Assembly: GCA_022706685.1 (NCBI GenBank)
Contig: JAKJCA010000004.1
Location: forward strand, 1 to 64,000
Direction of reading: 5' to 3'
Origin: Bacillota bacterium
GTDB lineage: Bacteria; Bacillota; Clostridia; Oscillospirales; Acutalibacteraceae
Length of the DNA: 64,000 nt
The translations under genes and the position numbers were made by a program. The notes under the pieces are model-generated. The model ran no database searches, was not told the origin of the DNA, and was given only the letters and a program-made list of their open reading frames with translations. Below, piece after piece: positions 1 to 1,611 of this stretch (its first letter is position 1; every line of letters begins with the position of its first letter).

Positions 1-1611
1 GCAGTGACGCCCGCCCCTGACGCCGGGACTGTCGAACCCGCACAGGCAGACGGCGGTGCTGCGGATGAACCCGAGAGCGAAGACGCGGAGTTCAAAGTCG
101 CCCTCGAGGAGTCATTGAAGAGCCTGAACTCAGACCAGAAGGTCCGCGGTGTGGTGATGGGCATCTCCGCTACGGAAATTCAGGTCGATATCGGCAGGAA
201 GCACGCGGGCTATGTACCGTTTGAAGAGTACAGCGCGGACCCGAACGCCAACCCCGCTGCGGAACTCAAAGTCGGCGACGAGATGGACCTCATCATTTTG
301 AAAACCAACGACACCGAAGGCACCGTCGTCCTCTCCAAACGCCGCTGCGACGCGATGAAGTCATGGTTTGATATTTGCGATGCCGAGAACACGGACACCG
401 TGTTCGAAGGCGTCGTGACCGAGATTATCAAAGGCGGCCTGCTCGTCTTGTCGGACGGTGTGAAAGTATTCGTACCCGCCTCTCTGGCGACCGCTTCGCG
501 AGGCGACCCGCTTGACGATCTGCTCAACAAGCGCGTCAACTTCAAGATTATTGAGGTCAACAAGCAGCGCAAACGCGCCGTCGGTTCCATCAAGGCGACG
601 CTTTCCGACAGCCGCAAGGCCGCTGCGGACGCTTTCTGGGCAACTGCCGCCGTCGGTGATAAAATACGCGGCGTGGTCAAATCGATGACCAGCTACGGCG
701 CCTTTGTCGATATCGGCGGCGTCGACGGCATGATCCATATTTCCGAACTCTCCTGGAAGCGTATCAAGGACCCCTCGGAGGTTCTTGCTGTCGGCGACGA
801 GGTCGACGTCACCATCAAAGGCCTTGACCCCGAAAAAAGGAAGATTTCCCTCGGTTATAAAAAAGCCGAGGACAGCCCCTGGGAGCAGCTGCGTGAGCAG
901 TATCCCGTCGGTTCCGTGCTGGAGGCGGAAATTGTCGGCATGACCACTTTCGGCGCTTTCGCCAGGGTGATGCCCGGCATCGACGGCCTTATCCACATCT
1001 CGCAGATCGCCAACCGCCATATCGAGAAACCGCAGGACGAACTGAAAATCGGCCAGACCGTAACGGTCAAGGTGACCGGTATCGATTTTGACCGCAAGAG
1101 AGTCAGCCTCTCGATTCGCGCCCTGCTCGATCCGCTCGAGGGAGCCGAGGCGCCGGCCGAAGAGGCCGCCCCGGCTGTTGATGAAACAGCCGAAGAAGCT
1201 GCCCAGACGGCAGAACCCTGCGAGCCTGTAGGGAACGACCCCTGTGTCGTTCCGGAAAATACGGAAGAACCCTCGGAACCCGCGGAAGAGGCCGCCCAGG
1301 CGGCAGAACCCTGCGAGCCTGTAGGGAACGACCCCTGTGTCGTTCCGGAAAATACGGAAGAACCCTCGGAACCCGTCGAAGAGGCCGCCCCTGTTGTCGA
1401 AGAAATTGCCGAAGAGGCCGCCCCGGCAGTTGAAGAACCCGCGGAAGAGGCTGCCCAGGCGGCAGAACCCTGCGAGCCTGTAGGGAACGACCCCTGTGTC
1501 GTTCCGGAAAATACGGAAGAACCCTCGGAACCCTCGGAAGAGGCCGCACCGGCTGTTGTTGAAATAGCCGAAGAAGCCGTCGAGGACGCGCAGGAGGACG
1601 AGGCCGAATAA
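1..1611 (+). CDS. rpsA: 30S ribosomal protein S1-type protein, 5' end outside window
   Basis: The reading frame is open from the first base, so the true start lies upstream; the GTG at position 4 need not be the start. Counting from it, four S1 (OB-fold) RNA-binding domains lie near residues 43-115, 129-197, 217-288 and 302-376. The last two are the most typical, with SYGAFVDIGGVDGMIHISEL and FGAFARVMPGIDGLIHIS. S1 proteins help bind mRNA on the 30S subunit. Residues from about 377 to 535 form an acidic Glu/Ala/Pro tail containing three copies of a Cys-bearing unit (AEPCEPVGNDPCVVPENTEE). In many Clostridia S1 domains are fused behind an IspH domain; the missing 5' part prevents checking that here. 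The gene ends just before a strong terminator. Identification as an S1-domain protein is firm; rpsA itself is likely. Confidence 0.85.
   Translation, partial: AVTPAPDAGTVEPAQADGGAADEPESEDAEFKVALEESLKSLNSDQKVRGVVMGISATEIQVDIGRKHAGYVPFEEYSADPNANPAAELKVGDEMDLIILKTNDTEGTVVLSKRRCDAMKSWFDICDAENTDTVFEGVVTEIIKGGLLVLSDGVKVFVPASLATASRGDPLDDLLNKRVNFKIIEVNKQRKRAVGSIKATLSDSRKAAADAFWATAAVGDKIRGVVKSMTSYGAFVDIGGVDGMIHISELSWKRIKDPSEVLAVGDEVDVTIKGLDPEKRKISLGYKKAEDSPWEQLREQYPVGSVLEAEIVGMTTFGAFARVMPGIDGLIHISQIANRHIEKPQDELKIGQTVTVKVTGIDFDRKRVSLSIRALLDPLEGAEAPAEEAAPAVDETAEEAAQTAEPCEPVGNDPCVVPENTEEPSEPAEEAAQAAEPCEPVGNDPCVVPENTEEPSEPVEEAAPVVEEIAEEAAPAVEEPAEEAAQAAEPCEPVGNDPCVVPENTEEPSEPSEEAAPAVVEIAEEAVEDAQEDEAE
1210..1533 (+). 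repeat. Three near-identical 72-bp repeats with internal palindrome in the S1 tail
   Basis: Copies start at about 1210, 1303 and 1462 and run about 72 bases each. They are nearly identical at the DNA level, including silent positions. Each contains the inverted repeat GGAACGAC - six bases - GTCGTTCC, which can fold into an 8-bp hairpin. All three are in frame and add the same Cys-containing peptide to an otherwise acidic tail. Confidence 0.9.

Follow-up and report, generated by a model that had tools for sequence, protein, structure and literature searches.

Results

Three palindromic repeats in the tail of a ribosomal protein S1 gene

The window, meaning the whole 64,000-nucleotide stretch that was analysed, opens with a truncated S1 gene (rpsA). 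With its open reading frame (ORF), the NCBIfam model NF005208 for 30S ribosomal protein S1 gave 371 bits (cut-off 368) and the model NF000907 for bifunctional IspH/S1 gave 372 bits (cut-off 624); the contig start cuts the gene, and in relatives the open frames at the S1 locus are ∼660–830 residues long. The tail is known from one assembly only, a 2.78-Mb draft in 113 contigs. Feature coordinates are reported in Table 1, where the palindromic units are already named REPs, an assignment that is argued below.

Table 1. Positions of the S1 tail features and of the RAYT loci of the host and a congener
Feature	Position	Strand	Remarks
3′ part of ribosomal protein S1 gene, IspH-S1 fusion type	1–1611	+	Four S1 domain matches and acidic tail
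REP copy 1	1228–1254	+	GTAG foot, 8-bp stem, 6-nt loop, closing G; in-frame VGNDPCVVP
REP copy 2	1321–1347	+	Same sequence as copy 1
REP copy 3	1480–1506	+	Same sequence as copy 1
Tail block 1	1208–1282	+	20 nt 5′ of REP, REP and ∼28 nt 3′
Tail block 2	1301–1375	+	75 nt identity to block 1
Tail block 3	1460–1533	+	74 nt identity to block 1
Host RAYT	G000:C61:2008–2682		Match to NF047646 below cut-off; first ATG at 2017
Exact REP 5′ of C61 RAYT	C61:1972–1997		Ends 19 nt before the ATG
Exact REP 3′ of C61 RAYT	C61:2702–2727		Starts 16 nt past the stop codon
Congener RAYT	G002 C120:8901–9419		Exact REP copies on both sides and one inside

An earlier note on this DNA had described three near-identical repeats in the S1 tail, each with an 8-bp inverted repeat and each encoding a Cys-containing peptide within an acidic context, and all of these observations were confirmed. 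The tail copies share exact blocks of 74–81 nt (1208–1282 with 1301–1375, 75 nt; 1208–1281 with 1460–1533, 74 nt; 1294–1374 with 1453–1533, 81 nt), and the palindrome GGAACGAC-N6-GTCGTTCC is intact, without mismatch, in all three. What had been overlooked is that GTAG precedes the palindrome and G follows it, which makes a unit of 27 nt, or nine codons. At every copy the unit reads GTAGGGAACGACCCCTGTGTCGTTCC and then G, and its codons (GTA GGG AAC GAC CCC TGT GTC GTT CCG) encode VGNDPCVVP within a predicted tail peptide of VGNDPCVVPENTEEPSEP. One of the two other forward frames of the unit contains a TAG stop.

With up to three mismatches allowed, the window holds five matches to the palindrome against 0.43 expected, a number reached in none of 100 shuffles. 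No other GTAG-footed palindrome with arms of at least 8 nt is present in the window, which also gave zero Rfam matches. The S1 copies stand singly, all in one direction, and form no dimers.

The unit is an interspersed hairpin

The exact palindrome occurs at ten places in the host genome (reversed control, zero), and GTAG before and G after it are present in 10/10 of these copies. When the GTAG foot was required and up to three mismatches were tolerated, 18 copies were found on five contigs, comprising the three S1 copies and 15 at other loci, of which seven are exact; clusters lie on contigs C93 and C61. The earlier note had proposed a search for copies elsewhere as a check on mobility, and these 15 copies answer it. 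The distribution is interspersed and mostly intergenic, as for REPs, with a copy number that is low for a REP family. Four ORFs outside S1 and the RAYT genes that carry a copy were scanned, of which three have no family match and the fourth, GH43-like (C93:8211), has the copy upstream of its likely start; these four thus gave no further clear in-frame copy in a known gene, and many of the ORFs overlapping other copies look spurious.

The 27-mer folds as single-stranded DNA with −7.8 kcal/mol (z −3.6). We then searched 1.09 Mb with a pattern (GTAG-N8-loop-N8) that prescribed the foot and most of the loop but no base of either 8-nt arm, and 188 of 196 places were paired at 7–8 of the eight positions compared with 1 of 25 for seven other tags, figures that speak to pairing and not to frequency because the sequence set was enriched for the REP. 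At 16 places the stem is altered yet fully paired (for example GGAACGGC/GCCGTTCC); the stem changes are compensated and the hairpin is maintained. Among copies at up to three mismatches, 24 of the 31 neighbours lying less than 130 nt apart form inverted pairs spaced by 43–56 nt. Such inverted dimers, with GTAG outside, occur in other carriers and once in the congener G002.

Three local arrangements were also noted. On C93 (L067:16800–16900), REP-like half-sites surround an apparent second palindrome, AAATC...GATTT, as if one repeat lay inside another. At L070:7868–7913, a copy is followed at once by a 19-nt partial second copy of itself. Draft contigs of S31_Bin1 (L104, L134 and L191) carry the loop variants CCTTAGT and CCTCTGT on the same stem, which suggests REP loop subfamilies.

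A probable RAYT gene flanked by the same unit

RAYTs (TnpA-REP) are HUH single-strand transposases that recognise a REP by its GTAG foot and stem. The Pfam model Y1_Tnp gave zero matches in the host genome, but the absence of a host RAYT that this null implied was overturned by a RAYT-specific model, the gene being split by in-frame REPs. NF047646 matched at G000:C61:2074–2640 and C23:34840–35121, both below its curated cut-off. The C61 gene scored 64.3 bits (cut-off 80) and retains MPNHIH and the tyrosine motif WRYIDENP. In frame within it lie a REP with two mismatches (GTTRGSFPT) and a more eroded one (GTTRGAFST); with a score below the cut-off and these two REP-like insertions after the HUH motif, the enzyme may be impaired. 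The preceding ORF (L068:1252–2004), for which no family match was found, runs into the REP upstream of the RAYT, and this REP encodes its C-terminal VGNDPCVVPLK. The second host RAYT (L218, on C23) contains two REPs that are in frame and belong to a different stem family (GGGCGAAC), and no flanking copy of that family is present within 400 nt.

Two Ruminococcaceae contigs, L148 and L181, have an exact REP both before and inside the RAYT, and their genes score 82.8 (above the NF047646 cut-off of 80) and 77.8 bits (just below it), respectively. The L148 protein finds PDB 4er8 by sequence (E = 8e-4), and its AlphaFold2 model (mean pLDDT 71, from four sequences) finds IS200-type transposases and, by fold, the E. 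coli REP transposase 4er8 (E = 7e-7). In this model the REP-coded stretch is a partly low-confidence loop running from the HUH strand to the next helix.

RAYT homologues were detected in 14 of 20 genomes reached through REP loci, compared with 72 of 391 in the class sample, and in eight of the 14 the present REP family (up to three mismatches) lies at the RAYT locus that was fetched. The six REP-bearing genomes without a RAYT by this query are G481, G482, G487, G488, G490 and G500, three of which are Syntrophomonas-type, including S. wolfei subsp. methylbutyratica (G481). For class-wide co-occurrence the sample is too thin, as only three of the 391 genomes carry the REP, one of them without a RAYT match.

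Identity of the unit

The earlier note had likened the repeats to Rickettsia palindromic elements. The reading as a mobile palindromic element stands; the Rickettsia type does not, since the unit is a GTAG REP and the genome encodes a probable RAYT that is cognate to it. Features of GTAG-type REPs that are found here are the foot with a short hairpin, interspersion, inverted dimers (in other carriers and once in G002) and RAYT association, or REPtron, at G000:C61, G002:C120, L148 and L181, and the evidence supports assigning the S1 repeat to this class. A Rickettsia-like or MITE-like unit that depends on a different transposase, not seen here, is highly improbable: Rickettsia units do insert in frame into genes that are likely to encode working proteins (PMC3733652), as here, but the GTAG foot, the single hairpin, the inverted pairs (24/31) and the cognate RAYT locus all fit a REP.

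The tags separate the two as well. According to the part of PMC3733652 that treats them, the intragenic R. conorii units are tagged with CGTC, a repeat class without associated transposase genes, whereas the S1 element is GTAG-tagged and has a RAYT; a Rickettsia palindromic element was rejected on this basis. The same source gives MITEs as 70–300 bp with terminal inverted repeats of 15–30 bp, and a 27-nt unit with an 8-bp stem was accordingly rejected as a MITE.

Spread among genomes and absence from other S1 genes

At up to two mismatches the REP is present in four of 98 genomes, the host included (host, 15 copies; congener G002, 9; congener G003, 1; same-family G032, 1). The 26-mer, with one C/T position left free, matches at least 115 stretches in named genomes, and many of those listed are in Syntrophomonas, Ruminococcaceae or Oscillospiraceae drafts. 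Exact copies among the matches listed come from Syntrophomonas, Ruminococcaceae, Eubacteriaceae, Geosporobacter and other groups, and one locus each lies in a Roizmanbacteria and a Chloroflexi draft (L151 and L203); these last two reflect either horizontal spread or mis-binned contigs. RAYT homologues are present in both drafts. The viral contigs searched contained zero exact copies.

An S1 match was found in 60 of 60 genomes searched, the host included. Across 30 S1 loci (one per genome), the GTAG palindrome is absent from the S1 ORF of the 29 others, and the congeners G001, G002 and G003 have acidic S1 tails that lack it. The near relatives' S1 genes, which the earlier note had named as a further check, are thus free of the palindrome even in G002, where the element occupies other loci. 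Together with the exact copies outside S1, this supports the proposed entry of a mobile palindrome into a coding region; the opposite pattern, a repeat confined to S1 with diverged DNA and a conserved peptide, did not appear.

Ordinary protein evolution, in which slippage expanded the acidic tail and the palindrome arose by coincidence or was kept for its peptide, is favoured by the EEAAP-type acidic S1 tails of differing length that are common in relatives, and tail slippage fits the duplication step. It is contradicted by the exact 26-mer at other loci of the genome and in genera that are not related, and 29 of the 30 S1 loci have no such palindrome, so that we consider this explanation extremely improbable.

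In-frame REPs within RAYT genes of Clostridia

We examined 60 RAYT loci, drawn from among the top entries in the list of class-sample matches; several genomes contribute more than one locus. A GTAG palindrome lies inside the RAYT ORF at 43 loci (two or more at 29 of them) and within 400 nt of it at 23. With 13 loci found before, the set comprises 73 (the pattern was noted across L224–L283, L068, L072, L148, L181 and L213–L220), and GTAG palindromes are inside at 54 and in the flank at 33, against 0–4 and 0–8, respectively, for ten control tags. Among 135 within-locus pairs, 64 have identical 5′ stem arms, compared with 3.1% of between-locus pairs, and internal palindromes are usually of the stem family of the flanking REPs.

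Sense copies share a common frame in 38 of 40 cases; the HUH motif was located for 37 sense copies, of which 21 start exactly 41 codons ahead of it. Antisense copies (n = 49) use all three frames; the motif was located for 46, and all but one of these (45) follow it by 11–22 codons. The frame of the S1 REP is the preferred sense frame of the RAYT-gene copies.

In-frame REPs within the transposase gene are a trait of TnpA-REP subclass 2.4, where they generally lie between HuH and Y (PMC6006769). According to that paper the subclass abounds in Cyanobacteria and Bacteroidetes, occurs sporadically in other groups and has eight inserted residues where helix B ends; the site that precedes the HUH motif in our loci may correspond to this insertion. 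The host and congener RAYTs resemble it, by this feature only, in that a copy of their own REP is read in frame downstream of the HUH motif; they differ from what that account gives in belonging to Clostridia and in often having a second fixed site ∼41 codons before the motif. A two-site RAYT pattern in Clostridia was not found in the open-access literature searched.

One tentative explanation, which we hold to be possible but doubtful, is that the Clostridia RAYT gene is built around a REP pair (sense ∼41 codons before HUH, antisense 11–22 after) that stays in frame despite stem change, so that the gene would carry its own recognition hairpins as self-tags and REPs would be pre-adapted as a harmless peptide. 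If so, the internal hairpins would serve co-mobility or autoregulation on the gene's own ssDNA or mRNA, and the VG...VP peptide would allow the cell to survive insertions into genes such as S1.

Discussion

Proposed origin of the S1 repeats

We propose that a RAYT-mobilised GTAG REP inserted once in the S1 tail and that tail duplication then gave three copies, a reading to which we assign a probability of roughly 0.88. The earlier note had envisaged spread of the element into S1, and insertion is retained; since the three copies have common flanks, one insertion followed by duplication reads best, and three independent insertions were rejected. A single REP would have entered the acidic tail in the direction and frame that read VGNDPCVVP. 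The frame would have been kept because the unit is 27 nt, or nine codons, and the tail tolerates changes in length. A segment holding the REP, 20 nt 5′ and ∼28 nt 3′, would then have multiplied to three, the most likely routes being slippage or recombination within the repetitive tail.

Observed directly are what the element is and where it has spread, its hairpin, the cognate RAYT locus, the absence from relatives' S1 and the common flanks. Which enzyme acted at S1, and when, we infer from sequence comparisons; the C61 RAYT, with exact copies of the same REP on either side, is the likely mover. The S1 copies and one C93 copy have eight extra 3′ bases in common, and the inserted piece may for this reason have been longer than 27 nt.

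That overlap also bears on a different route, in which a REP-bearing piece, from C93 for example, reached S1 by recombination or gene conversion without RAYT action there. S1 and C93:17105–17138 share 34 exact bases, eight beyond the 26-mer, and C93 is rich in local repeats; the other exact copies, however, match S1 only over the element and one or two bases per side, and we regard this route as unlikely. Our preferred reading, RAYT-mediated insertion followed by duplication, does not imply a benefit to S1.

Relation to known REPs

PMC3733652 describes GTAG REPs together with their RAYTs, and also reports REPs that lie in frame in many genes. The present element shares with those the 5′ GTAG foot, short stem, mostly intergenic location, head-to-head dimers, nearby RAYT and some in-frame copies; compared with the cases in the accessible part of that source, it differs in that the gene is rpsA and in that the copy was tripled together with its flanks. 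The terms ‘Clostridi’, ‘Firmicutes’ and ‘ribosomal’ are absent from the main text of PMC3733652. As in the REPINs or BIMEs covered in PMC3116915, the REP in other carriers forms inverted pairs ∼52 nt apart, whereas those in S1 stand alone and share one orientation. PMC8266576 treats how group 3 enzymes recognise REPs that are perfect palindromes. Intragenic REPs and REPs inside RAYT genes are thus already known; new are the ribosomal gene and the Clostridia, and a report of a REP in an S1 gene was not found in the open-access literature searched.

On this account, a named mobile unit, whose likely mover is encoded by the same genome, added sequence to an essential ribosomal protein and was then amplified, which makes S1 a clean natural example of REP-driven protein expansion in Clostridia. 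The frame bias and the in-frame REPs of RAYT genes make two ideas testable, that REPs are selected for translatability and that a RAYT acts on its own gene.
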